A stretch of DNA of 64,000 nucleotides from Selaginella tamariscina (Eukaryota; Streptophyta; Lycopodiopsida; Selaginellales; Selaginellaceae). Location: positions 563,336-627,335 of the forward strand of contig PUQB01000086.1 in assembly GCA_003024785.1 (NCBI GenBank), read 5' to 3'. This document shows positions 10,899 to 64,000 of the stretch, piece by piece. A program made the translations under genes and the position numbers. The stretch's first letter is position 1. Every line of letters starts with the position of its first letter. The notes under the pieces are model-generated. The model was given only the letters and a program-made list of their open reading frames with translations, was not told where the DNA came from and ran no database searches.

Positions 10899-10903
10899 AG
10901 GAT

Positions 10904-10994
10904 TGTTGAGCTGAAATCAAGGAGATGACAGCCTCAATCTCCGGCAGCTTCTTCGGCCGCTTTCAAGGCTTAACAGTCGCCAAGATATTTTCAA
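10904..10994 (+). repeat. 5' LTR of copia 2, left part (split by DNA transposon)
   Basis: Matches 29399-29489 in the intact 3' LTR. It ends with TATTTTCAA (10986-10994), the left copy of the 9-bp duplication made by the inserted DNA transposon. The LTR resumes at 18862. Confidence 0.95.
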
Positions 10995-11040
10995 GAGTCC
11001 CGACAAAAAGAGGGCTTCCGGGCTTCCGGGCTTGGACCCG

Positions 11041-11100
11041 GAATATTCTAAAGAATCTACCAGAATATTCTTAGAATATTCCTAAATATTCTTAGAATTT
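11041..11100. repeat. Left subterminal GAATATTC cluster
   Basis: GAATATTC palindromes at 11041, 11063 and 11074, plus partial copies, within about 60 bp of the left end. A similar cluster lies at the right end. Candidate transposase-binding sites; they also fit the heat-shock element pattern GAAnnTTC. Confidence 0.7.
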
Positions 11101-11213
11101 AGGATTTTGGCTCAGTTGGCAATTAACAACAAAAAATATTTAATCATAGCCATGTTTATACTGTATTATTTAAAGTTTTATTTCAACACCAAAGAGTTAC
11201 AATTCAACACTTG

Positions 11214-14200
11214 TCACTTCTTCTTACGATTGAGCAATGCTGCAATTCGTGAACCACCAGTCCTACTTGACGTCGCTATTGGTTGGGTTGGGATTTCCTC
11301 TGGCTGGATGTTCTCTTTAATCCTGTTCATAGCAATTCTCCCGAGCTCAGGGTTCTTCTCAGTCCCAACAATGTTTCTCCCCAGCTCGATAGCTGCAAGC
11401 ATTGAGGACCCCGTACCACTGCCTATATCCCAGATAAGATCACCTGGCCGGGTGAGTCGTTCTATCACGAGCTGCATCAATCGAGTGCTCTTCGGTTGGT
11501 AGTCCATCCTGCATGTGAAGATAATGGTAAATACTTAAATTGTTGAAATGAAATGCCTACCATGTTCTTGGAACCGCTCAGGATTATCAACAAGAATTGT
11601 TGATGACAAACGCAGCGGATTATCGCGCAATCCTCTAGATGCATCTTGGAAGACAAGAAGGAGCAGGATGCTCTCCTGTTAAAACATCAAAAATCATTAA
11701 TGAACTTCATGAATAAAGAAAAAAGTACCTTCATCTTGTTGCGGTAGCCCCAACCACGCCCTCTGTAGATGTAGTACGTTGCAGCAAGTTGAAGGTCCAC
11801 CACACTTGCAGCTCGGACAACTTGATCCCAGGTGTTTGCTGCAGCAAACACAACCAACCAACCATTTGCAGCCATATGCATACCTGCAAACTGGAGTGCT
11901 TCATCGAACTTCACTGGATCAAGGTAGAGGTATGGCGTATCACTCGTTGTATTTCCTGGCAAGGTCCCATTTGGAAGGTCGAAGATCACCAAGTTGAAAC
12001 CATATTCTCCCGCAATATGCTGGTAGCGAGTCTGGCTGTCAGCTGTATGGTACCTGGCCACCTGTGTCTGAACTTTTCTATAAGGAACCAGTCTAGCGTC
12101 AGGAACCTCCTCTTCCTTCTCATCCGTGAGCACGGCCTGTTGCATCTCCTCGATGTCATCAATCGCCAAGAAATTATCACCTCGAGTTGTAGCAAGTGAA
12201 GGGACGAATGTGACCAAGTCATCCTTGATGTCCATGGTTCCCTGCGATGGTAGCACTTCAGATAAATTGATAAGGCAGCTGGATCGCGAGTAGTGGAGGT
12301 GCCAGCTACTGTATCTGAGGTCTTCTTTGACTGCTGCACAGGCTGACGCCGCTTTGCCTTGGCCTTTGTCTTCTTAATGAAGTCGACCTCTGCCGGATCC
12401 CATGAGATGCATGGGAGATCTTTTGAGTGTTCATTGTAGAGATCCTTCTCCCATGTTGGTGGTTGCCCAGGTGGATAATCAAGCCAGAACGGTACGTTAC
12501 ACGTTCGAACTCTGTCAGGCCAGATCTTGTCTTCGACCACATGTGTGGTGCTTCCATGTAATCTGACCAGAATACCATAGTCTGTGTGTGAGGCACCTTT
12601 CTCGCTGCGACATACCTGTAATGAACATATAGTAGTGTCAGAATGTAACAATGTCAAGAAGATCATCCTTACCTCCAAATCATCCTTCTTGCTGTCTCTT
12701 CGTGTTCGAGGAACTCTTTCGGCTCTATGGAGTAAGTGAACTTCACACACTCATGGAATGGCTGGAACATCACGTTCTTGCATTTTACCCGCACTTCATC
12801 GTACCAAGTCGTGAAATCTGTAACCGGCCTGCTCCACTCGCCATCCTCGATGAGTCCCGTGAGAATCTGTACTGCCTCCTCTCTGATCGCCGCCAATACA
12901 AATCGATAGTAAACCACCTTATCCACTCCTTATCCTGAACACCCGGCAATCCAAGTGTCTCTTGCTCTCTCTTCAGATCGAGACGTACCAGTTTATTGAA
13001 GTACATGATTCTCGTCTCGTTTGGAATTCTCGCCCTTGAAAGCGCGTACAGCTTTTCCAACCCCATCCATCTGCATTGTTTCCATGTGATTTGGGTCACC
13101 TTGTCGAACCACTCTTCACCCAATGCAGGATCGATGATGGCTAAGATCTTCATCATGCGCTTGTCATGCTTAATGTAGACCTGTTGTTGCTCCTGGTATT
13201 TGTTGCCTTTGGATGCCCTTGCAGCCTTCTCAAGATCATCCTCAATCTCACTCTGTAATTCACAGACGTAATCAACTAAGTAATATAAGTGTGAGACGTG
13301 GTACCTCAAAAAAATCTTTGCACAGATCAAATTCGGAAGTGGATGCCAAGCTTGTTGTCCAGTGCGCTTTCCTTCCACTTTCTTATGTCATCTCGTTCCT
13401 TGTCACTGAGCCTGGCCAAGATCTTCGCTGTGCCCTCCTCACTGGTGCAACATGTCTTCACAGATAGCAGAAGATGTGGCAGTGTGGTTTGCACTGCCGT
13501 TGCGGAGGAACTGCATATTTGAAAATCTCGAAGTTAGTTAATCCTATGATCTAGAGGTCACTATGTTTACCTATTAATTTGCTGAAACATTGTCACAAGC
13601 TGAAGATTATCCATGACCCCAGCACGGATGAAGCCTGAACGCACTCTCACTGCCCACTGATTCTTATCTTCCGTGTCTTCTGTGTACAGCTTCTGAAGCA
13701 CCTTTAGCCTGTGATTACCATCCCAACAGATGAACTTCTTCATCGAAAGCATTGGTGCCCATTGCCGGAACATGTCAGACTGAAGCTCCTCCTCAAAAGC
13801 CAAATGCTGAGCATACATCGCTTCATCGCTTCTCAATGCTGCCAGATCTGCATCTGTCATGGGGTCCCCAACTTGAAGGATGAACTGAGTGGTGTTGCGC
13901 AAATAACCAACTGCCTTCTTGAAACTCCTAGTCAAAGATTCCAGATCCGCTGGATTGACTCTCCGCACCTGCTCATTTCCCAGAATTCGGCAAATAGGGA
14001 CATCCGGTGCCTCTCCATATTCTCGGATTGTGATCTTCGCACTGCACTCTCCGAATGCATGCTGGCTGCAATGTTGTAAACTTCCTCATTATCTGGCACT
14101 TCTGCTTTACCCTTCTTCTTCTTCTTAGCAGCCTCTGAATCTCCAGCAGCTTTGCGTCGTCTCTTCTTGCTTGGGTTCATCCTCTTCGTCACTCGACAAA

Positions 14201-14517
14201 GTCACTGCGCATGAGGCTTGTGTGCCTTCTGTCTGCTCCTGTGTCTCCTGTGGTAAGACATCATCCTCAACTTCTTCAACAAAGTCTGATTGTTCTTGTT
14301 GGGGTTGAACTACATCCTCTTGCTCTCCTGACCAGTCCTGCTGGCTTGCCTGTTCAACTGGAGCATCACTTGAAGGTCCTTGTTCCTGAACCACAGCCAG
14401 CTTCCTACTTCCTCTCCCACGACCCCGACGCCCTCTCTGAATTGCAGCTCTAGCTTCTGCTTCTCTCTCAGTAGGCTCCTTCATCTTCTTTTCTTGTAAA
14501 CGTTGTGAAGAGCGCAT
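11214..14517 (-). CDS. ParB-like domain plus beta-class DNA methyltransferase-like protein
   Basis: Multi-exon minus-strand gene starting with ATG at 14517. The N-terminus is acidic, Gln-rich and basic (GRRGRGRG, KKKKKGK), suggesting a nuclear protein. A ParB-like segment follows (about 14060-13571): VRRVNPADLESL, then FICWDGNHRLKVLQKL, matching the ParB/sulfiredoxin-type (D/E)G.HR box. A long middle region leads to a methylase-like end: FNLVIFDLPNG in the place of motif IV (12010-11960), then QPKSTRLMQLVIERL and WDIGSGTGSS...LGRNIVGTEKNPE, a clear SAM-binding motif I (11500-11330). Motif IV before motif I is the beta-class order of bacterial N6A/N4C methylases. The canonical (D/N/S)PP(Y/F/W) is absent. 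Likely introns include 13511-13570, a 52-nt intron at about 13257-13308, and ones near 12610-12670, 11640-11690 and 11515-11565. At least five 1-nt frame changes remain, so it is a decaying copy or carries assembly indels. Function is inferred. Confidence 0.72.
13511..13570 (-). other. Intron in the ParB/methylase-like gene
   Basis: GTAAAC donor (read on the minus strand at 13570) and a CAG acceptor at 13511. Removing these 60 nt joins FQQIN in frame to a long conserved-looking exon (SSSATAVQTT, then LSDKERDDIRKWK). This shows the gene was spliced as a eukaryotic transcript. Confidence 0.7.
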
Positions 14518-15490
14518 CTACAAAAGCAATAAGGTTTAACAAAAAACTGTAATAAATGTTCAAAGATGTTTAATAAAAATTAAAAAAACATACTAGCCCT
14601 CACAGTCGGCGTGCCGACTGAGAGAGCAGTTGCTGTAAGTCCCAGTCGGCATGCCGACTGGACTGGCAACAAAGGGAGTCCCAGTCGGCATGCCGACTGG
14701 GACTGGCATCAAAGGGAGTCCCAGTCGGCATGCCGACTGGGCCTGGCAACAAAGGGAGGCCCAGTCGGCATGCCGACTGGGACTGGCAACAAAGGGAGGC
14801 CCAGTCTGGGACTGGGAACGAAGCAAGGCCCAGTCAAAATGCTAGGTGGGACTAGAACAGTCAACCCTAGTCAAAATGCTGACTGGGGCTGGAACAGTCA
14901 ACCCCGGTCAAAATGTTGACTGGATCTGGAACAGTCCACCCCAGTCGGCCTGCCGACTGGGACGGACAACGAAGTCAGTCCGAGTCGGCAGGCCGACTCG
15001 GATTTCTTGCAACTGTGAAGAGATGTAAAAAGATGAACAGATCATGAAAAGATCATGAGCAGATCATGAAGAAATCAGAAAATACTCACCCCCTCAATGG
15101 AAGCCTATTGTGATTAATCCCTGGAGCCACACTTGCTCCACGCTATGCCCCCAAATGCCCCTGCTCCACGAAAACCTAGCCGCCCTAGCTCCTAGCCGCC
15201 CTAATTGCAAAACCCTAGCCGCCCTAAATCAATTAAAAACCAACCTAATTTCTGTAAACATATTGCATGCATGATCGCCACTTGTACATAGTAAAACTTT
15301 TTAATTTACAAAAAACCTACCCAGACGCAGTAAATTAATTTCACTCTTCTACCCAGACGCACGCAATTAATATTATTTTTAATATTTGTCAATGAAATGA
15401 TTGCCTCACGACTAACAAACACATTAACCATCGTGTGTAATATGTTCATTGTCTTTGAATTTTAACTTTTGTTTGTTCCATTTTTGCTAC
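14518..15490. promoter_or_regulatory. Bidirectional intergenic spacer of the MULE
   Basis: 972 bp between the start codons of the two divergent genes. It holds the palindrome array (14603-15000) next to the methylase-like gene. A pyrimidine/CCTAGCCGCC-rich stretch (15110-15240) and an AT-rich stretch (15250-15440) lie next to the transposase. No single TATA box stands out. Confidence 0.6.
14603..15000. repeat. Palindrome array CAGTCGGCATGCCGACTG, about 40-bp period
   Basis: Perfect or near-perfect 18-bp palindromes start at 14603 (GT centre), 14643, 14682, 14722, 14762 and 14942, with a variant at 14981-15000 (CGAGTCGGCAGGCCGACTCG). In between, about four degenerate copies (14802-14925) have lost the GC-rich core. 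Period is 39-40 bp in the intact part. Spacers share GGACTGGCAACAAAGGGAG-like sequence, so the array grew by tandem duplication. It lies just upstream of the ParB/methylase-like gene start. The array may be the operator or parS-like binding site of the neighbouring protein (inference). Confidence 0.9.
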
Positions 15491-18400
15491 ATGGCAAGAA
15501 TCAGCTACAATGGTGTTGACAAGGACTTCCCTGCAGATGAAGATGGTATTGCATTTGTCTTTGAAACAGATCTCAGGTCTGCATTTGACATTCCACCTTG
15601 GCAATCTTTTAAAGTGCTGCATTTGATGTCTGTTGTTGGTGGAGATGCTGCGAATGTTGAGGTAGAACCAGAAGGGGCAAGAGCTAGCAGTTTTGTGTAT
15701 TACACACTTCTTCCTTCCAAAGGACCGCTATTCCGGTTGGAGACAACAGATCGGGACAATTCTATGGTAACAATACTTCGCAATAGTCAGAGATGTAGGA
15801 TTGGGAAGCAACTGGTGGTCTCGTCATCGATTCAGCAAGTTGCTGAGGTCCCAGAAGATTGCAACGGAAATGTGATTTACGAGTTGCCAGCACACGAAAC
15901 AATGAAGGACAAGTACAAAGGGATGAATAGGAAGGATGGGTGTGATTACTGGACTCAACGCTGCACAACACATTGGAATGTTCCAGCTCGTGTTAGTCGC
16001 AGTTCATGTATTGGCCACATGAAATGCGTAAAGGAAACATGTCCGTTCATCAGCTTCAGTAAGAAAGCAAATGACTGCCAATTTAAGGGCACCATTGATA
16101 AAGTCCAGTTATCTTCAGATGGTAGAGTGCTTGGAATGAAGTGTGTGCATTGCAACAATGAGCCCCTTCTAGTGCAGACATGCTCCGTTGTTGCATATTA
16201 CATAATTCCAGATGATATCACATGCACGAGGCTTTTCATCCATCTTGGAGAACATCAACACCCACGTAGACCACCCGAATCCATGGTCTCTAAAGACAGA
16301 GCTAAGGAGACAATCAACAAAGCAGTCGCTGCAACCCCAAGAACTAATCAACGTGTCATAGAGTTTCAAGCAGCACGCAATATAATTTTGGAAAAACTGG
16401 TAACAGATTCTGGAGATGTATCATACGACAAGGTTCTGTCAGATCTACTACCACTCACAAATCACCGCCGGTAAGCAAAAAAATTATTATTTCCTTTTGG
16501 AGATGCTTAACCTTTCCACTGTAGAACAAGAGAATGGATATCTCAGGCTAGAACAAGAGACACTCGTTTCAAAGAAGGTTACGAAGGACTTCTGCAGTTA
16601 AAGAAGAAGCTATCAATCCCATTCATACATGTTATCCACATACCCGGAATGGACCTCAACGGAGCTGAAGAGCAGCCTTTAATCTTCAAAATGACGGTTG
16701 CCGGCCCAGGATCCGGAATAGACTACATTAGAAGGTGTCAATCTGGAGGTGATCTCGAACAGCAGTGGGTGGTGCTAGACCACACATATCGTATTGATGA
16801 TTGGTGTACACTGGGAATACATCTCTATGATCCATTGTAAGTATTAACATATCTATGTTTTAAAATACTTACTAATATAATGCACTTATGTTTGTGTAGT
16901 TTAAGGTCGATGGTGACACTTGCTTATGGTGACATGATCAGGGAGGATAGTGTGGCGGTGATCAAATTTTTGAACACTATGCTTCAAGTGTGCAGCAAGC
17001 AAGGACTTCATAATGTGAACTTTGCGGGGTTCATGTCAGATGAGTCAGGTGCAATTTGGTTAGCATTGCGTCAAGTTTTCAACAATGGGTCAAAGATGAG
17101 AGGAAGAGAAAGGAGTTGTTTGTTCCATTACATGCAGTCAGTGCGTCAAGTTACAAAGAAGTGGATACTTGAGGAACACAGGGAGGAGCACATGAACCTT
17201 GCACGCTCATGGCCTGCAGCACTAACCAACCAAGATAAGTTGGAACGACGAGTAATGTTGGAGTCATTTTGGGAAGGCAGGTCCAGTAACGTTAGCGCTT
17301 TGCAAACATGGCTGTCATGGTGGGCAAGACATGAAGATCATATTTCCATGACAGAGATAATTGACTTGACAGAAGATGGTGTTGCGAATGTGCCTACCAC
17401 TAACAACTCCGAAGTTGTTCATGCAAGAGCACGAAGAGCAAGGCTGACGAAGCGTGTTCCTTTGTTGGAGGCAACAATGTTAGATTTAACAGATGCTGTT
17501 TTCCAAAGTGCAAAGGTCAAGGCATCATTTGAAGGGAGATATTCAGGCACAGGTCCTTCCATGGAAACTCTTCTGAAACGTGCACAGCAGAAACTTTCAG
17601 CGGGAAAATCAGTGTCTCCAACAACTTTTGCAAATCTTGTTAGTGATGAAGAGCATCTTGCAAGTCCAGAGTTTGCCTCTACAACAAATGTTCGTGTTCG
17701 AACCGTTCGTCAACCGTCAACTGGGGACCATGGGATTGATGCACTTCGTACACATAGACATGACACACAATATGCAGAACAAGTCATCCCAAATGCACGC
17801 AGGAAAAAACTCAAGTTTCAAGATGTCAATGTCACTGAAAGAGAGACGTTGATGACTCAGTGGGCCATCAGACGCATTGGGGAGGCAAGTCAGGTGAAAT
17901 GTCTAGGTCTCACTCAGGACGGTAACAGCAAGTGTGGCAGACCCATAGGATATCCACATCGTGTACCGGCACCAGGATTTCACGGTAGACGGCAATATAC
18001 AAATGCATTTGGGAACATTGAGTTCACTCATCAGATGTTATGGTTCTGCCCACGCGATTCTTGTTGCTTCAGACGACCATATGCAGGGATTCCTCCTGAG
18101 AGTATTCCAGAAGTTCCAGAGGTTTGGCCAGTTCAAAAAGGAACAAACTTGAATGCAAATGAGGTTGAAGCTCTTCTGAAAGCAGGATTCAAGTTGGAGG
18201 GATTTGAAGAAATGGTAGACGACAGTAGTAGCCGAATGGATCGAACACCATCACCACCAAGAGGAGAGGGAGCACATAGAGTACCAACATACCATGGACG
18301 GAGTGTGCGAACACCAACAAGAATGTCCAAGGAACATGAGAAACATTACAACCAGGCAAAGATTCTTCAAGGTCGGATCAACAACGTGGAGGTGGTTCAA

Positions 18401-18664
18401 AGAGGGAAGACTGAGGCCTTCATTGTCTCTGCAGGCATGCAATCTGCTAAGGTAACAATTTCTACTGTTCCGTCATGCACTTGTGCAACTTTTCAGAAAG
18501 CCAAGAACTGGAGCCCCTGCCAACACATGTATTTTGTGTACACTCATGTTCTTGGATTGGACCCAACGATTACTTACTTCTTACAGAGGCGGACCCTTAC
18601 TCCAGCAGAAGTGCATCGGTTATTGGTTGATTGCAAGCGCAATGTCGAACCTGCGACTTTTTAA
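15491..18664 (+). CDS. Mutator-like transposase with Cys/His finger and SWIM domain
   Basis: Three exons: 15491-16470, 16525-16836 and 16900-18664, with introns of 54 and 63 nt bounded by GTAAGC...GTAG and GTAAGT...GTAG. Joined, they give about 1018 codons with no internal stop, so this copy looks intact. Start chosen at the first ATG (MARISYNG). The N-terminal half has a Cys/His-rich region with pairs of cysteines and a GEHQHP ending, like WRKY/GCM1-type fingers of MULE proteins (about residues 180-260). The DDE core has the first Asp in WVVLDHTYRID (about 411) and the second in GFMSDESGAIW (about 479), followed by CLFHYMQSV, the MULE C..H signature. The third acidic residue is not certain. 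A SWIM zinc finger, CTC...CQH, sits near residue 960. The enzyme would cut and join the element ends in the nucleus. Confidence 0.88.
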
Positions 18665-18760
18665 GTTTAGTCGGTATAGTAAAGTCTAGTCGGCAAATAA
18701 TTAGCGTTTTTCACTTGTTGGTCGGCATTTTATATTGAAAGTTAAAGATAATCTACTTGG

Positions 18761-18824
18761 CAGAATATTCTAGAATATTCCCGTTTATTTGACAGAATAT
18801 TCCTGGATATTCGGGAATATGCGA
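18761..18824. repeat. Right subterminal GAATATTC / phased GAAnnTTC cluster
   Basis: GAATATTC at 18763 and 18773 gives four GAA/TTC half-sites in perfect 5-bp phase. A second run, 18795-18820, has six further phased units with one mismatch. This is the consensus of heat-shock elements, but it also mirrors the left end of the transposon and lies downstream of the transposase stop. A role as transposase-binding sites is equally possible. Confidence 0.7.
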
Positions 18825-18861
18825 AAAGCCGTTGTACGAAGCCCGGTTTTTGCTAATCCTC

Positions 18862-18956
18862 TATTTTCAACGTAGAGTTGTATATATGCTATGTGTGAAC
18901 TAATAAGCATTACAGTTGTTTCTTTTCTTTTTGATTAAAGATCTTTCATTCTGTCA
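18862..18956 (+). repeat. 5' LTR of copia 2, right part
   Basis: Begins with the right copy of the TATTTTCAA duplication (18862-18870) and continues to CTGTCA at 18956, matching 29481-29576. It is followed at once by the primer-binding site TGGTATCGGAG. Confidence 0.95.
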
Positions 18957-18979
18957 TGGTATCGGAGTAGGGTCAGAAA

Positions 18980-22735: not shown

Positions 22736-23260
22736 TGTCACAACCCGATGCAGGATACAGGTTTCCGGATACAGGATACAGGATGCAGGATTTCGGATAC
22801 AGGATACGGGTTACAGGATATGCCTGCAGGATATTCCTACAGGATATACCTATAGGATATTCCTATAGGATATGCCTATAGGATATGCTACAGGATATGC
22901 CTAGAGGATAAGGGACACTATTCTTAGCTCATGACTAGATTAGACTCATGACTAGATTAGCTTGGAGTTGTGAGCATAAAAGCTCCGACCTAATTGTTGT
23001 ACAATCAGTTACTATCAACACCAGTCATTCTACGATTATTCTTGTTTCCTTGTTCTTGTCTTACTCTTTGCCTCCTGCTCCTGTCTTGCTCTTGGATCCT
23101 GTCTAGTTCTATTGTTCCTGGATCCTATCCTGCGCTTTCCTGTCTTGCTCCCGTATCCTATCCTGATCCTGTCTTGCTCTGGATCCGTCCTGTTCCTGAG
23201 TCAAGCCTTCCTGTTCCCGGAATCCTACTCGCTTCCTGGTTCCTGGATCGTGGCTTGACA
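22736..23260 (+). repeat. 5' LTR of the gypsy chromovirus (525 bp)
   Basis: Starts TGTCACAACC at 22736 and ends GGCTTGACA at 23260. The first 180 bp are made of degenerate AGGATA(T/C) units, many joined as CAGGATATGCC. A TATA-like CATAAAAG (22974-22981) lies 25-30 bp upstream of CAGTTACTATCAA (23006), the probable start of R. Confidence 0.9.
22974..22981 (+). promoter_or_regulatory. TATA-like box of gypsy LTR
   Basis: CATAAAAG lies about 30 bp before the segment complementary to the primer-binding site, which fits a transcription start near 23004-23006. Conserved in the 3' LTR at about 28602. Confidence 0.6.
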
Positions 23261-28380: not shown

Positions 28381-28899
28381 TGTCACAACCCGATGCAGGA
28401 TACAGGTTTCCGGATACAGGATCAGGATGCAGGATTTCGGATACAGGATATGCCTGCAGGATATTCCTACAGGATATACCTATAGGATATTCCTATAGGA
28501 TATGCCTAGGATATGCTACAGGATATGCCTAGAGGATAAGGGACACTATTCTTAGCTCATGACTAGATTAGACTCATGACTAGATTAGCTTGGAGTTGTG
28601 AGCATAAAAGCTCCGACCTAATTGTTGTACAATCAGTTACTATCAACACCAGTCATTCTACGATTATTCTTGTTCCTTGTTCTTGTCTTACTCTTTGCCT
28701 CCTGCTCCTGTCTTGCTCTTGGATCCTGTCTAGTTCCTATCTTGTTCCACCGAGAAAGGGGCCGAGGGTGAGGTGGTGTCACGACACACGTATTAGGTCT
28801 GGAGCGTGGTTAGGTGTCATCCTGATCAATGTGGCCTTTTGGTCCAAAGTCACGCCTACTACTCCAGAGGTAGGGGGTTCAAATCCCTGGAACGTGACA
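28381..28899 (+). repeat. 3' LTR of the gypsy element, with foreign 3' tail
   Basis: Matches the 5' LTR up to TCTAGTTCC (about 28738), then diverges completely for about 150 bp before ending CGTGACA at the duplication AAGTT. The divergent tail contains GGTTCAAATCC, a good RNA polymerase III B-box match. One 14-bp unit (ATACGGGTTACAGG) present in the 5' LTR is missing here. Confidence 0.85.
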
Positions 28900-29331: not shown

Positions 29332-29398
29332 TGAGGAGGAGGTAAAGTACAGATGCAAAGCAGCCGCAGCAGCAGTCATCACCCTTGTTTAGGAGGAG

Positions 29399-29576
29399 TG
29401 TTGAGCTGAAATCAAGGAGATGACAGCCTCAATCTCCGGCAGCTTCTTCGGCCACTTTCAAGGCTTAACAGTCGCCAAGATATTTTCAACGTAGAGTTGT
29501 ATATATGCTATGCGTGAACTAATAAGCATTACAGTTGTTTCTTTTCTTTTCTGATTAAAGATCTTTCATTCTGTCA
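29399..29576 (+). repeat. 3' LTR of copia 2 (178 bp, uninterrupted)
   Basis: TGTTGAGCTG...TTCTGTCA, preceded by the polypurine tract AGGAGGAG and followed by the duplication AGGAT. It holds the single, unsplit TATTTTCAACG site that shows what the DNA transposon hit in the 5' LTR. Confidence 0.95.
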
Positions 29577-29581
29577 AGGAT

Positions 29582-33390: not shown

Positions 33391-35038
33391 TGTTATAGTT
33401 TTTATTATGATTCGACCCTTTATTTTTGGAGGTTGATTATTGTTACCTACTGTACTATATTGATGACGGACCCTAAATGTAGTGAGAAACAGCCCCGTTT
33501 AATGCACTTAGGTGTTTATGGGTAGTCCGGTCGGGTATCTTTAGATGTCACAATAAATTTTAAGCGAATGTAGCACTTACCTTTTAGAAAAACCCACCCA
33601 TGATTTTGACGTCCTAGTTAATATGAGTTTGACATGTTAAATAGGGTTAGGAACACCCCTAGGGTTGCCCTAACCCACACCCTAAAACCCCCACCCCCCT
33701 TGGGTAGGGTTTAGGGGTAGGGGTTAGTGTGCAAACTCATCTCATTAACTAAGGGGCTGGCATTCCGTGCCAGCCCACTTACACATGTGTAGAAGTGAGG
33801 GTTCTCCATCACATAAATAAGGTAGAGTATGTAGAAGTGAGGGTTTATGGGTTCATGACTGAGCTCATTACTCTTCTCCCGATACAAGCTCTAGCTTGTG
33901 TCGTCAAGGAACCCTTTGTTGTGCCACCCTAACTTTTAGATAATAGGGATAAACCCTAAATCCTAAACCCTGCATGCCTAGGAGGTCTTGTGGGAATGCA
34001 CGTTCCAAGAGGTATAGGTTAAGACTTGTCTCCAGCTTCCTCCTCCACGTCAAGTTAAGAGCAACACTCACAGCTAAGCAAGGCACGTTCGTGTCCTTAT
34101 CCAACTGTGGTCGTGGGTTCTTGATTAACATGGTATCCTTACCAAGTCCTGAGGGATAATTGAGGAGTTCTATAGTTGGCATTTAAGAGCCACATTTGTG
34201 GCACTTGGTGCAACTCTTGAATTTAAAGGCTGTGGCATGATAGCCCACATCATGGAAGGTAGTGTCACATGAAGATGTGACACTGGGCTAAACGTCATAT
34301 GATACAACGGAGGCACGCTCTTTGAGGTTGTGTCATGAGATTGTTGCCAAGGGGTTGGATTTAATAAACATACATGCTTAAGCCTTGGGCATTTGCTCAA
34401 GGGGAGGTTAGGTCTCGTAACTAGGTGTGCTTTAACACACTTGGCTAGGGAGTGTTTTCCTTAGATCTAGGGGTTGAACAACCTAAGCTTGTTAGCAGAA
34501 GCCTTTTCGTAAAGCACTCACAAAGTTATGTACTTAGGGTTATCCAAACCTAGTCTTAGAGAGTTTATTTAGTAGAACACTCATGTTCACCAATGGCACA
34601 TACTTGTGTCCTCACTAAATACTAGCCTTAAGTCTAGGGCATAACTTGGCCACTCAAACCCTTAGGGTTAGTCGTGGTTCATGGTACCCCTTGTCGCTTT
34701 AAAGGGTTGTACTCTCGGATGAGGGTGATTCTTAAGGGGTAAGTGATGATGCCTTAGCTTTGTAACGGGGCATGTGTGAGACACATATCCTTTGTGGGGT
34801 TAAGGCATGAGCTTATCTAGGTCTATTGGGATAGGATCTTAAAGTTTACTCGGATATCCTTTAGGGTTCGGGGGATGGTCATTCTAAGGGACTTAGAATA
34901 GAACTCTAAGTCTTCTGTTTAATTAGGCATTTGAGTTTAAATTCTTAAAGTTGTCTTGGAAGATTTAGTGTTGTGTCGGAAGGCTACTTGGTAGTCACGT
35001 GTTGCCACATGTTAGCCTTTCGGGTTAAAACTCTGACA
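33391..35038 (+). repeat. Solo gypsy-type LTR (1.65 kb)
   Basis: Begins TGTTATAG and ends ACTCTGACA, with a TAAT duplication on both sides (33387-33390 and 35039-35042). No internal coding region adjoins, so it is a solo LTR. Homologous copies lie at 48990-50582 (plus), 47711-48985 (minus), about 50583-50825 (minus) and 56173-57128 (minus). The family carries telomere-like CCCTAA/TTAGGG runs near its start and a conserved hairpin (GTGTCACAT/ATGTGACAC arms at 34262-34283). Confidence 0.8.
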
Positions 35039-48989: not shown

Positions 48990-50582
48990 AAGTTTTTACT
49001 ATGACTCGACCTTTTACTTTGGAGGTTGATTATTGTTACTTACTATACTATGTTGATAAGTCCTAAGTGTAGAAACTCTGGGTGAAGTTAACACTTCTAT
49101 CTAGAAAATTCTTACCCTAGTTTTTCATGTCTTGGTTTAGTTTTGGGTGGTTTCGGTGAGTTCAGCATGTCGGATATGGGTATAAACACCCTTAGGGTTG
49201 ACCTAACCCTAGGGTTGCTTTAGCTCCACGCCCTAAACCCCTCAGGTTAGGGTTTAGGGTTAATGGGTCATTAATTAACTCACCAACTATATTCCCTCTA
49301 GGAATGAGATTCCGTGCTAGCCCACTTATGTAAATAGGAAAACGGGACGGGGACGGGGACGGGGACGGGGGGGGCTCTGTCACATAAATAAGGTAGAGTA
49401 TGTAGGAGTGAGGTTCCTAGGTTCATGATTGAGCTCGTTACTCTTCTCCCAGTGCAAGCTCTAGCTTGTGTCGTCAATGCACAACCCTCTGTTGTGCCAC
49501 CCTAACTTCCATATGACAGGGGTACGTCCCACCTTCAGGGTAACTTACCCTTAACGTTAGTGAATCCATGCCTAAGAAGTCTTGTCGAAATGCACGTTCC
49601 AAGAAGCAAAGGTTGAGGCTTGTCTCCAGCCTCCTCCTCCACGTCAAGCTAGGTGTAGCACTCACAGCTAAGCAAGGCACATCCGTGTCCTTGTCCAACT
49701 GTGGGTGTGGGATCTTGTTTGACAGGTTCATGTTGCCTAGTTCCTGAGGGTTTACTAAGGGGTTCTAGAGTTGGCATTTAGAACCACGTTTGTGGCACTT
49801 GGTGCAACTCTCAAATATAAGGGCTATGGCATGATAACCCACATCATGGAAGGCAGTGTCACATGAAGATGTGACACTGGGCTAGACGTCACATAATACA
49901 ATGCCCGAGGCATGCCCTTTGGGGTTGTGTCTTGGGTTTGTTGCCAAGGGGTTGGATACTCTAAAACAGGCATGCTTGTGCTCGCACTAGGGTGCTAAGC
50001 TTTGGGCATTGGCCCGAGGGATTGAACAACCTAAGCTTGTTACCAGGAGCCCTTTCGTGAGGCACTCGCAAGGTCATGTACTTAGGGTTATCTAAACCTA
50101 GCTTTAGGGAGTTTGCTTAGCAGAACACTCATGTCCGCCTACGGCGCACACTCGTGTCCTCACTAAGTATTAGCCCTAGGTCTAGGGTATGACTCCTGGT
50201 ATGACTAGGCTGTGGTTTAGAGTACCCTTGTCGCCCTAAAGGGGTTGTACTCCTGGATGAGGGTGATTCCTCAAAGGGTAAGTGACGATGCCTTAACTCT
50301 ATCATGGCGGTATGTGTAAGACACATCTCCTTGATGAGGTTAGGGCATGAGCTTGTCTAGGTCTACTAGGACAAGATCGGGTTATCCTCTAGGGTTCAGG
50401 GGATGGTATTCTAGGGGACTTAGGGTAAGACTCTAAATCTTCTGCCTAATTGGGTCTCTGAGTCAGACTCTTAGGGTTATCTTAGAAGACTTAGTGTTGC
50501 TCACACAGGGTGCTGACGCCGGACGACCACTTGGCAGCCCACGCGTTGCCACGTGTTGGCCCTTTGGGTTAAAACTCTAACA
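48990..50582 (+). repeat. Gypsy LTR, plus orientation
   Basis: About 1.6 kb, homologous along its length to 33391-35038. It shares TTTGGAGGTTGATTATTGTT, CCTAGGGTT runs, the GTGTCACATGAAGATGTGACAC hairpin (49857) and the end GGGTTAAAACTCTAACA. The first bases (TGTCATAG) are not preserved. Contains a short (GGGGAC)n tract at 49345-49365. Confidence 0.75.
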
Positions 50583-59997: not shown

Positions 59998-62110
59998 TCA
60001 ATTCATTATCAATTCTTCTTCGCTATTACCTTCTGAATGAGGCGAAGAAGGTCTAAGCCGCTTGTGAGATGGTTCAAGATCTTCTGCATCTTCTATTGAT
60101 GTTTCCATGGGTCCTGGAGTGTGCGAATGTTCTGTACTCCTCGAGATAACTTCCGGTCTAATATCTGATTGATGTTCGTTCTCAGACTCCGAGATTGAAC
60201 CAGATTCACCTTCAGAGCTATCGCACTTATCTGGAGGGAACTTTCTCAAATACGCCTTTATGGATTCGTTGGGGTACTCAGTTGAGACCCAATCTATCCA
60301 CTTGTTCAGGTCCTCAACCATGGTCTTATCCTTTCAACGGCAAACACACATGTATGCCGAAGGTAACACTCCTTCAAGACGGACCCCCTAGTGCAGTAGT
60401 CAAAAACCCACGCATCACTGTGAGGACCCCTGATCAAGTTGACGATGCTCCGTGCCGCTTGACTTGTAATGTTTGGATAACGTACATTGCCGAATACGTC
60501 ACTCATACCTATCGGTGTATCGGATGGAGGTTCAGGGCCGTTGGAGTGCAAACAGATGCCTGGCCAGTCATTTGGAAGCTTGAAATTGTTTGGCGCATTC
60601 CTAACAACCAAGTGAACAACGTATCAATGCACTTGGGATTAGCATCGTTCATATAAAATCCTGTCCAACGATGTCTATTCTTCTTGGCGAAGGCGAAGGC
60701 AAAAGTATCGGTGACATGAGCAAGAATCAAGAAATAAATACCTGAAAAAGTAGGTATCAGTGAAGAGCGCAAGCATGAATTCAATAATAAATACCTTCTA
60801 TGTATATGCTTGCACGGCTAAGTTTCTCCACCAGATCCTCTAGTGCCCTATCTGTCGAAAGATTTTTTGACACCCGCCGATCCATCACGAACAATTGAAA
60901 CGGTTTCCTACAAGCAGTGATGTTACCCCATAAAGTCTCCGAATCTAACAACAAACATCTGTAGGGCTTGTCGTGATTCGTAGCATCCTCCTTTATAAGG
61001 TTCAATTCGGTTCTCCGCTGCTGAAGGACTGCCATAAGAGAAGGCGTCATCCCAATGTTCTCCTTTTTGGCGTTGGCGTGCAATAGATTCTTGCCTAGAT
61101 CTTCCGATTGGTTCACCCATTCGACAAGCATATCATCGTTCGTCACATGCAAATATTTGCTACCTCTTCATATGTTGAAGTCGAGGTCCAACCCAGTTTG
61201 TGGCAGTGTATTCCCAACCACTCCTTGAAATGCCTGACCGTCTTCAACTCCATTGCCTTGAGATGAAAAGGAGAGGTTGGGCTGCTGTTATTAATTTGTA
61301 GTTTGCCATCGATCACCAAATCAGCCAAGACTTCCATCTCCTCCATCGTTGTTCCATTTAAAGGCTTCAACCATGTGAGCTTGAAATCGTTGTCTACATC
61401 CTTTGTAGATTGAACAGACTTAGCCTTCGGCGTCTTACTGGGTTTCTTTGCAGACTTTTCTGAGGGCTCCCCTTCACTTGTCTGCTTCTTCTTCAGTGTT
61501 CCTTTTGAAAAGGATTCCATAATCCCCAACCATTTGGCAAAGATCCTATCTTCGGGGCAAGAAATCAACATCATCAGAAATGATGTTTCCTTCCCGCCCA
61601 CCTGGGCAAAATCAACTGCTGCAATTTCTTCAACTCTCTGAGGAAAAAGACAGATTAATATACCGGCGAGATAAATCCCGCCCAAACAATTTGCTTACCC
61701 GGTATTCCGCAGATTGTGTATTCCCTGCGGTAGCTCTTTGTGGTCGCTGAAGAGATTCCCACACGGCTCGCGTGTGTTTAAACTTCTCCCATATTTTGCT
61801 GTTGTAGTGGTTGGTGTCGGCAGCGTCCCATTCCGCCGATAACTTATGGTACTGCTCGATTGTGAGATTCGGCTTAGCTAAAAACGCCGATCTTTTTGTC
61901 AGCTTCTCACGGGTATGCTCGGAAAGTTTTGTTGCCATCGTTCCTTTGTTGTGTTCATCGAGAAGTCGTTGGGCTGCCGTTATTGTGTGCTGGCCACTAA
62001 TGATGTAGTACTTGATAGATCTTTTATTCTCCGTCTGAATCTTCATGAGTTGTTCGGTGTTGTATCCAGACTTTGTCAGCACTCTTCCTTGTCGGAGGGA
62101 GTCCAAGGCG
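59998..62110 (-). CDS. ParB-like / degenerate DNA methyltransferase-like protein, second element
   Basis: Minus strand, about 700 codons in several exons. The N-terminal part (62110-61700) has GGINPALDSLRQGRVLTKSG, then YYIISGQHTITAAQRLLDE, a ParB-like SGQH box equivalent to DGNHR in the first element. A lysine-rich linker follows (61520-61420). The C-terminal half aligns in layout with the first element: PFQLFVMDRRV in place of motif IV, YFLILAHVTDTF as the next strand, ITSQAARSIVNLI then AWVFDYCTRGSVLKE and TCVFAVER in place of motif I. Neither methylase motif is canonical. The tail (60321-59998) is acidic and Ser-rich, ending EEELIMN. At least three frame changes (near 61150, 60600 and 60310). 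One intron at about 60730-60785 is visible. A start codon is not obvious; the frame runs into the palindrome array. Confidence 0.65.
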
Positions 62111-62391
62111 GGATTAATCCCGCCGACTCTCTCCGAAGGGGTTGAGTCGGCGGCGGGATTAATCCCGCCGGACTCCCTTCCTCGTCGGAAGAGCGGCGGG
62201 ATTAATCCCGCCGGACTCCCCCCGAGGAGGAAGAGGCGGCGGGATTAATCCCGCCGGCTCTTCCTTGTCGGAGGGAGTCCCAAGGCGGGATTAATCCCGC
62301 CGACTCTCTCCGAAGGGGTTGAGTCGGCGGCGGATTAATCCCGCCGGACCGTTCCTCGTCGGAGGGATTCGTGGGCGGGATTAATCCCGCC
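62107..62391. repeat. Palindrome array GGCGGGATTAATCCCGCC, 43-46 bp period
   Basis: Seven copies start at 62107, 62152, 62195, 62238, 62284, 62329 and 62374. Six are perfect 18-bp palindromes; the sixth lacks one G. A higher-order unit of about 177 bp (62090-62266) has begun to repeat, including the ACTCTCTCCGAAGGGG spacer. Spacers carry smaller inverted repeats such as GGAGGGAGTCC. Position and layout match the array in the first DNA transposon although the sequence is different. Confidence 0.93.
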
Positions 62392-62533
62392 CATCAGTTG
62401 TATTAATCAAACATGAGATATTATCTTAAACATAATTATGTATTATTGCATATGCCATATTATTAAGTAACCGTAATTCAGATTTCTTAGAAATATTGCA
62501 TAAACAGATATCATAAATAATACAATTATTTAT
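62392..62533 (+). promoter_or_regulatory. Putative transposase promoter region
   Basis: AT-rich 140 bp between the palindrome array and the first coding-like frame. No certain TATA box; TATTTATGTGCAG just before 62540 could be a splice acceptor rather than a start region. Confidence 0.35.
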
Positions 62534-64000
62534 GTGCAGGACAATATGTTTAATACTGGAGATAAAGTATGTCTTCTTCGGAACAACGAGATAGTTGGCA
62601 CTGGAACTGTGGAAGTTCGAGATAATAATGCATCATGTCACAATATTGCCCAAGGATCTTGTGTGTACGTATGGGTGACACCATTTACAAGTATGTTGAG
62701 GTTCTGGGAATGGAATTTGAGGAGGGTTCTCCTGTATTGTGGAATTTGGATGAAGTTAAGGCTGACACAGAATATGCAGAGTCACAAACAAATAGTAGCA
62801 CGAGTTTACCAGATGATGGCTTGCCTGCTGTAATGGATGAGGTGATTCTCTTTCTTCGTGAGATTGAAGTCGGAAGAGGCATCATCACAGCTATAAATCC
62901 AATGGAAGCAGTGTCAGAAGAGAAACTAGGGTCCGACTTCGTGGGTGTAGTTGTGACAGAGGTTTCACCTAATGGCACATTGTATCCTGGATCCTCGTGA
63001 GGTGGCGAACATCTGAATTAAGACGGCAAGATGGTTCAATATTCTGGGTTGGATTTCAATAATAACAACCCGGAAAGAACAACTCATATTTGAAGAGGTT
63101 CCTTGCATTGGTCCTATTGTAAGAAAAAGGCGATTCATGGGTTGTAGATCTTCCCTTGCAAGTTTCAGCAAGAGGGTAAAGATGGATCCTACATCTTCCG
63201 AAAGTGTTACGAGCATTTCCACGATTGACTGTTGCAAGAAGAAGTGTTGTCAGATGGCAGACCCGAATGAAATTACCCAATGTAGACATGTCTTTCGTAT
63301 GCTCACCCAAAAGCAAAGGCATGAGTTTGTATATGCTGCACTAACTGGGTGTATTGATGGAATGGCCTCGAACACAGGTTATCAGAGTACATCCATGGTA
63401 TTTAATAAGGTGGCCATCTGCTTCAAAGCTTGGTACAGTATATACGGGATCCCAAAGACCACGTTCTACCGTTGGAGGGATGAGTGGCTAGATGGAGCGC
63501 GAACCTCAGTTATGGGACACTGGCTTGGTCAAAACCCGCTCTCACATCATGGCACCATAGAGATACTCAAGGCTTTTGTGGAAGCAAATGCAGACAGGAT
63601 GCCTCACAAATGCCGAACCACAAATGCAGGGTTAGGGAAAATCTCAAGGTTTTACCTTCAATCTACACTCAATTGAAACTGTGTGAACATGTGAACAAGT
63701 GCCTCAGTTTGATGGGGCTCCAAGCAATCTGCACTGGTACCTTCAACAACATATGAATACTCATTTTAAGGATGTGGAGATTGCAAAACACTCTAGCTTT
63801 TTAAGTGTGACACTTGTACATCATTGAAGGCTGCAGAGGCTTGTGCAAAAAACCTTGGTGGAGATCACTACCATTCAAAGGAAGATGGAGGCCACATGAT
63901 TGCACAACAAATTTGCCGGTCTCAGTACTATGCACACCGCATGCTTTCTGTGTCACGCCCATCAGAGTACCTGTGCTTGATCCATGACAAGATGGATCAT
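62534..64000 (+). CDS. DDE-type transposase of the second element (partial, runs off the window)
   Basis: Plus-strand coding blocks: MFNTGDKVCLLRNNEIVGTG and IYKYVEVLGMEFEEG (62545-62760), a beta-rich module like the one found in plant transposon proteins (DUF8039-type resemblance, tentative). Next comes an acidic stretch to 63000, then EEVPCIGPIVRKRRF and a Cys-rich DCCKKKCCQ (63230). FKAWYSIYGIPKTTFYRWRD is a helix-turn-helix-like segment, followed by ANADRMPHKCRT. After frame changes near 63640 and 63800 it reads VCDTCTSLKAA, SQYYAHRMLSV and YLCLIHDKMDH at the window end, where the IHDKMDH Asp looks like the first catalytic residue. This family is distinct from the MULE transposase at 15491; I do not assign it to a named superfamily. 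Confidence 0.65.

Follow-up and report, generated by a model that had tools for sequence, protein, structure and literature searches.

A stretch of 64,000 nucleotides from the Selaginella tamariscina genome [GenBank: assembly GCA_003024785.1, contig PUQB01000086.1, positions 563,336 to 627,335 of the forward strand], here called the window, contains a DNA transposon inserted in a long terminal repeat (LTR). The transposon is likely Mutator-like and carries two divergent genes, one for a transposase and one for an accessory protein. The C-terminus of the accessory protein has, with strong support, a beta-class N6/N4 methylase fold, and an array of palindromes lies between the two gene starts. 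Many related copies with the same pair of genes are found in the genome sequence searched. Our best explanation, which is tentative, is that this is a transposon family with a two-part DNA-targeting accessory protein that would act at the array.

The insertion can be read from the LTR itself. The element is bounded on both sides by a perfect 9-bp duplication, TATTTTCAA, and the two flanks, when joined, are 97.3% identical over 186 bp to a second LTR copy elsewhere in the window. The empty site is therefore seen, because this second copy has one TATTTTCAA, at 29481, and no insertion. An earlier note on this DNA had placed the borders by the perfect duplication inside the LTR, and these borders are borne out. 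The two ends of the element form an imperfect inverted repeat, with a match between the 24 terminal bases that was equalled in 1 of 20000 shuffles. The subterminal stretches also align in inverted orientation, with a score of 39 where none of 500 shuffles exceeds 26, but both are rich in GAATATTC repeats.

The genome, 300.7 Mb in 1,391 contigs, was searched for related elements. At least 151 matches to the exon with the candidate ParB segment (see below) were reported, and 150 were listed, the window copy included; most of those listed are 96–99% identical. Twenty regions were fetched, some from the top matches and others from the most diverged, so they are not a random sample. Both ends were located by script in 19 of these, and the remaining one (L011) is truncated by the region chosen. 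Perfect 9-bp duplications flank 13 of the 19 (L009, L012, L014, L016–L019, L021–L023 and L025–L027). There is one mismatch each in L015 and L024 and there are three in L020, and no duplication is present in L013, L028 and the rearranged L010. Because L020 and L022 have one flank in common, these two may not be independent. The element ends are closely similar among the fetched copies, which are 7,252–8,126 bp long (18 copies, L010 excluded). In L010 (G000:C531:71235-80111) the accessory-gene half of the element, from 1 to about 3670, is doubled as inverted copies, and a transposase match was not found within the fetched stretch.

Does the minus-strand gene belong to the element? The earlier note had described two divergent genes, which is correct (transposase on the plus strand, accessory gene on the minus strand), and had allowed that the minus-strand gene might never accompany the transposase in further copies. 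The opposite was found. Among the best 74 transposase matches of 2,693 scored candidates, the window copy included, 54 have an accessory-gene match listed within 6 kb on the opposite strand. The other 20 were checked at the expected place, where 19 contain accessory-gene sequence and one is off the end of its contig. The accessory gene is partial in L034 (at a contig edge), L043 (ended by the contig) and L047 (internally deleted). All 73 testable best matches, own copy included, thus have the gene beside the transposase in whole or in part, and the minus-strand gene therefore belongs to the element.

The transposase had been called an intact-looking Mutator-like element (MULE) transposase. It is intact in that it reads from the ATG at 15491 to the stop at 18664 across introns of 54 and 63 nt without an internal stop, but its MULE identity is less direct. 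The Pfam MULE domain was not matched in the five proteins scanned, namely the last exon from the window and four homologues (P0001–P0004), one of which is from the fern Adiantum nelumboides. No Pfam family was matched by the earlier exons, and a SWIM finger was found below the cut-off (E = 0.016). The protein has a DHTY...SDES...CLFH layout, which we take to be the MULE-type motif order. The inverted repeats, which some MULEs lack, are present here in imperfect form. The 9-bp duplication of the window and those of the fetched copies, perfect or with one mismatch in 15 of 19, fall within the 8–11 bp given for MULEs in the available text of PMC6446971. On account of the 9-bp duplication, the imperfect inverted ends, the sub-threshold SWIM finger and the presumed motif order, we use Mutator-like as a likely working label.

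The accessory gene is a spliced eukaryotic gene, as the earlier note had said, with five GT-AG introns of 52–60 nt. The note left unstated that the frame is broken in the window copy. The idea that these breaks are merely introns was rejected. A protein-database search with residues 150–1010 of the conceptual protein (8000 candidates scored) found nothing, as did one with a rearranged motif query of the protein, and viral contigs scanned with the last exon of the gene contained no relative.

The methylase-like domain predicted at the C-terminus was recovered by Pfam, by PDB sequence matches and by profile comparison. The last exon matches Pfam N6_N4_Mtase with E = 7.5e-10 and 39.6 bits (cut-off 26.7). 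Its matches among PDB sequences are MboIIA (E = 7.8e-5), CcrM and DpnA, and also L11 and rRNA methylases. A profile comparison by hhalign with nine beta-class enzymes from phages and plasmids gives a probability of 98.4% (E = 7.9e-15); the score is 100.2, and none of 40 shuffles exceeds 18.8. Motif I, which binds S-adenosylmethionine (SAM), and the strand that follows it are present (DIGSGTGSS...GRNIVGTE). Of the 20 copies, 16 have motif I as IWDIGSGTGSS and L013 has a variant of it; the motif was not found in L010, L021 and L022. The fetched phage and plasmid methylases are single-domain where annotated, and no ParB fusion was seen in them (L054 is without annotation). A perfect 20-bp palindrome, GTGTTTGCTGCAGCAAACAC, is present at 11832-11851, inside the methylase-like coding region.

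The earlier note mentioned an array, but left undescribed the palindromes between the gene starts. Seven perfect matches to AGTCGGCnnGCCGACT are present in the window array, where 0.00 are expected. The degenerate units of the array have other arms, and spacing is mostly about 37–40 bp. In all 20 copies (19 fetched and the window) palindromes are present, 2 to 12 per copy, with AT, GT, CT or AG as the two central bases; the constancy of the arms is no separate finding because the search pattern fixes them. The parS sites of bacterial ParB proteins are likewise 16-bp palindromes. We regard the array as a candidate binding array. The features of the element are collected in Table 1.

Table 1. 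Features of the transposon and its insertion site, in window positions.
Feature	Position	Strand	Remarks
Whole DNA transposon, 7,867 bp	10995..18861		9-bp duplication; empty-site LTR copy; like ends in fetched copies
Left target-site duplication TATTTTCAA	10986..10994	+	perfect 9 bp
Right target-site duplication TATTTTCAA	18862..18870	+	perfect 9 bp
Interrupted LTR	10899..18959		10899-10994 plus 18862-18959; joined flanks match 29394-29579
Left end GAGTCCCGACAAAAAGAGGGCTTC	10995..11018	+	imperfect inverted repeat of right end; 16/24 bases identical
Right end, reading inward GAGGATTAGCAAAAACCGGGCTTC	18838..18861	-	similar end in fetched copies
Transposase, 1018 aa, open	15491..18664	+	exons 15491-16470, 16525-16836, 16900-18664
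Accessory gene, methylase-like (ParB-like part unproven)	11214..14517	-	5 GT-AG introns
Introns of accessory gene	13570-13511, 13304-13253, 12672-12616, 11728-11676, 11560-11509	-	60, 52, 57, 53, 52 nt
Beta-class N6/N4 methylase-like region, three exons	11214..12271	-	Pfam, PDB sequences, hhalign
Motif I DIGSGTGSS	within 11214-11507	-	
Motif IV-like FDLPN	near 11980	-	
Candidate ParB/Srx-like segment with CWDGNHRL box	13570..14046	-	no library match
Palindrome array, 7 AGTCGGCnnGCCGACT plus degenerate units	14604..14998		between the starts of the divergent genes; spacing mostly near 40 bp

How might these parts work together? In the explanation that we prefer, the N-terminal half of the accessory protein, perhaps ParB/Srx-like and dimeric, would recognise the 16-bp palindromes between the gene starts, the dimer reading both half-sites of each. 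The C-terminal methylase fold would mark the bound element or, if the methylase is inactive, would be a second DNA-binding or SAM-binding module. The array-bound protein would then keep the promoters of the element free of host silencing, or would direct the transposase to its own ends. Its mode of action would be like that of VANC in VANDAL elements, by a different protein and with no kinship meant. New copies would multiply while the accessory protein is made, and silenced copies would decay through cytosine deamination. Among the distinct single-base differences between copies in the accessory coding sequence, 199 in all, G>A and C>T account for 148, as expected of cytosine-methylated, silenced, deaminating copies. 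Taken as a whole, and including a recently amplified Mutator-like family in which the transposase and the divergent accessory gene are the standard set, we regard this explanation as nearly evenly poised, leaning slightly to doubt. A self-marking or anti-silencing role, as the earlier note had suggested, remains an inference. The palindrome array fits such a role. The departure of motif IV from the canonical form and the disrupted reading frames, both described below, speak against an active methylase in this copy.

Several results weigh against this explanation, beginning with the N-terminal half. The ParB-type DGNHR box that the earlier note had pointed to is there, but the segment around it has no ParB match in Pfam, PHROGs, NCBIfam or PDB sequences, and tblastn of phage and plasmid sequences with it gave nothing significant. 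The whole segment was aligned by hhalign to a profile of seven ParB-like sequences from plasmids and phages. Its global-mode score of 3.0 is no better than that of shuffles. In local mode the segment scores 17.1 against a best of 16.3 in 40 shuffles, but through an unrelated short piece. Without its internal loop the segment aligns in the ParB register with a score of 20.8 (E = 0.0098, probability 4%), and the G..R box is part of the alignment. This signal is marginal, as the best shuffles in two sets of 40 score 15.5 and 20.6 and none of the 80 reaches 20.8, and the loop-less query was chosen only after the whole-segment test had failed. Single-sequence AlphaFold2, run without relatives, gave a predicted local distance difference test (pLDDT) score of 36.7 and no usable fold prediction. 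The ParB identity of the N-terminal part is thus an unproven lead, not a result. A possibility to be taken seriously, on the doubtful side, is that this part is not ParB-like at all, that the palindromes are binding sites of the transposase or promoter elements, and that the methylase acts elsewhere. The four libraries and the whole-segment alignments speak for this, and the loop-less alignment, with its post hoc query, speaks the other way.

The methylase half has its own difficulty. Motif IV was placed by eye, in a stretch that the hhalign alignment does not cover. FDLPN is found there in 19 of the 20 copies and FDLSN in the other, and neither is the canonical (D/N/S)PP(Y/F/W). With DLPN rather than DPPY, catalysis is uncertain and activity doubtful; in the window copy the broken frames disfavour activity further. 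The accessory protein may therefore be a dead methylase that has become a DNA-binding transposition factor, comparable with maize mudrB, which would assist the transposase at the palindromes or at the element ends and would make no mark. Besides motif IV, this is favoured by the fixed linkage with the transposase and by extra MULE open reading frames such as mudrB, which the accessible part of PMC6446971 describes as apparently needed for integration. Yet the SAM-binding half, motif I included, is well kept, and DPPY is likewise replaced, by DLPY, in one of the phage enzymes used for comparison, which carries an N6 methylase annotation. We consider a dead methylase somewhat unlikely.

The state of the reading frames is the remaining point against the preferred explanation. 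Nineteen copies (L009, L012–L028 and the window) were compared with their majority sequence. None has an accessory coding sequence free of indels; frame-disrupting indels average 9.1 per copy there and 4.0 in the transposase coding sequence (medians 8 and 2). The transposase coding sequence is free of indels in one copy of the 19, that of the window. Because of its frame-disrupting indels the accessory gene is not intact in the window copy, which differs from the majority by 8 of them (7 by a stricter column rule) and by only 1 substitution. Such an excess of indels over substitutions in the accessory coding sequence, seen in 4 of the 19 copies (L026, L027, L028 and the window), points to assembly error, whereas the two-fold excess of indels relative to the transposase, and indels common to several copies, indicate relaxed selection as well. 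The indels may thus reflect assembly error, relaxed selection or both. The 199 distinct changes comprise 60 silent, 125 residue-changing and 14 stop-making ones, and the ratio of residue-changing to silent polymorphism among copies (pN/pS) is 0.64, a sign of weak constraint only. A further caution is that all 74 of the best transposase matches belong to a single close family, and the linkage is established within that family.

Could the accessory gene then be captured cargo, like that of Pack-MULEs, with no role for the element and now decaying? The indels in all 19 copies and the pN/pS would agree with this. However, the majority frame of the 19 copies is open over 1015 codons, the gene is retained, in whole or in part, wherever the linkage could be tested, some of the indels look like assembly error as said above, and the pairing of such a gene with a transposase recurs in the brown-algal Sola1 transposon (PMC12477816, in the text available). 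We find cargo without a role quite improbable. A more specific form of the preferred explanation is a system like that of ParB and parS, in which a dimer encoded by the element would read the array and its fused methylase would write N6-methyladenine (6mA) or N4-methylcytosine (4mC), or would block 5-methylcytosine (5mC), so that the element escapes silencing. This form is unlikely; if true, a transposon in a land plant would be making an epigenetic mark that is addressed by sequence.

Other repeats are present in the window. Between the two LTR copies there is a direct repeat pair, 22736-23118 and 28381-28748, which is 94.6% identical, together with short tandem units of GATACAG and TACAGGATATGCC. 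Another repeat pair of about 580 bp, 33809-34360 and 49380-49957, is 81.6% identical. A second palindrome array, of CGGCGGGATTAATCCCGCCG with a period of about 43, is at 62081-62391, in the region 60300-64000, between a minus-strand and a plus-strand gene; the minus-strand gene contains the strings YYIISGQHTITAAQRLL and VFDYCTRGSVLKECYLRHTCVFAVER. An array of this type and the beginning of the plus-strand gene are seen again, inverted, in L059. With its array, a minus-strand gene with ISGQHTITAAQRL and a methylase-like string, the region at 60.3–64 kb resembles a second such element by eye, but we do not claim it as one. Pfam found no ParB or methylase in it, tblastn with the proteins of the main element gave no match, and hhalign scores are within the range of shuffles.

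Accessory genes of this kind are already known from algae. In the brown alga Ectocarpus, the 21.5-kb transposon Sola1-1_Ec32 has a protein of 1,104 aa, ParB-like with an N4/N6 methylase, encoded opposite the transposase (Dinatale and co-workers, PMC12477816). As far as the available portions of that paper go, it also cites examples from red and green algal transposons and proposes that proteins of this type may bind the transposon that encodes them and modify it. The element described here shares with Sola1-1_Ec32 an accessory gene opposite the transposase, a product of about 1,000–1,100 aa and the N4/N6 methylase domain, while the ParB-like domain described in Ectocarpus is not established here. 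It differs in being 7.9 kb long and Mutator-like rather than of the Sola superfamily, in its 9-bp duplications, its plant host and its palindrome array. The likeness to the Ectocarpus, red algal and green algal proteins is drawn from published descriptions. The earlier note knew of no ParB and methylase cargo in a plant MULE, and we found no report of one in the open-licence literature, but the algal transposons have it already. What is new, as far as the literature search suggests, is that the host is a plant, that the carrier is Mutator-like and that a palindrome array is present.

Other known systems resemble parts of the element. VANDAL elements of Arabidopsis are Mutator-like and have an accessory protein, VANC, which targets a short motif repeated in tandem in non-coding DNA of the element (PMC5735166). 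Short motifs in an array are thus a common feature. VANC is a known anti-silencing DNA binder for which the available text mentions no methylase fold, whereas such a function is a proposed one for the accessory protein. With MboIIA, CcrM and the phage and plasmid beta-class methylases it shares the C-terminal SAM-binding half, motif I and the fold. Unlike these it has DLPN in place of DPPY, and its gene is eukaryotic, spliced and inside a transposon. The N4 methylase of bdelloid rotifers has made the bacterial-type N4-methylcytosine a eukaryotic mark (PMC8885841). It is likened here by description rather than by sequence, and in the accessible text it is not described as transposon cargo.

These comparisons suggest that the transposon-borne methylase gene of algae also occurs in a high-copy and apparently recently active plant family. 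A candidate target array, which the available text on the algal cases does not mention, is supplied here along with many near-identical copies. With both at hand, self-marking can be tested directly by mapping 6mA, 4mC and 5mC over the arrays. The element may therefore be one that binds and marks the DNA of which it consists, an arrangement known to date, from the text available to us, in transposons of algae.

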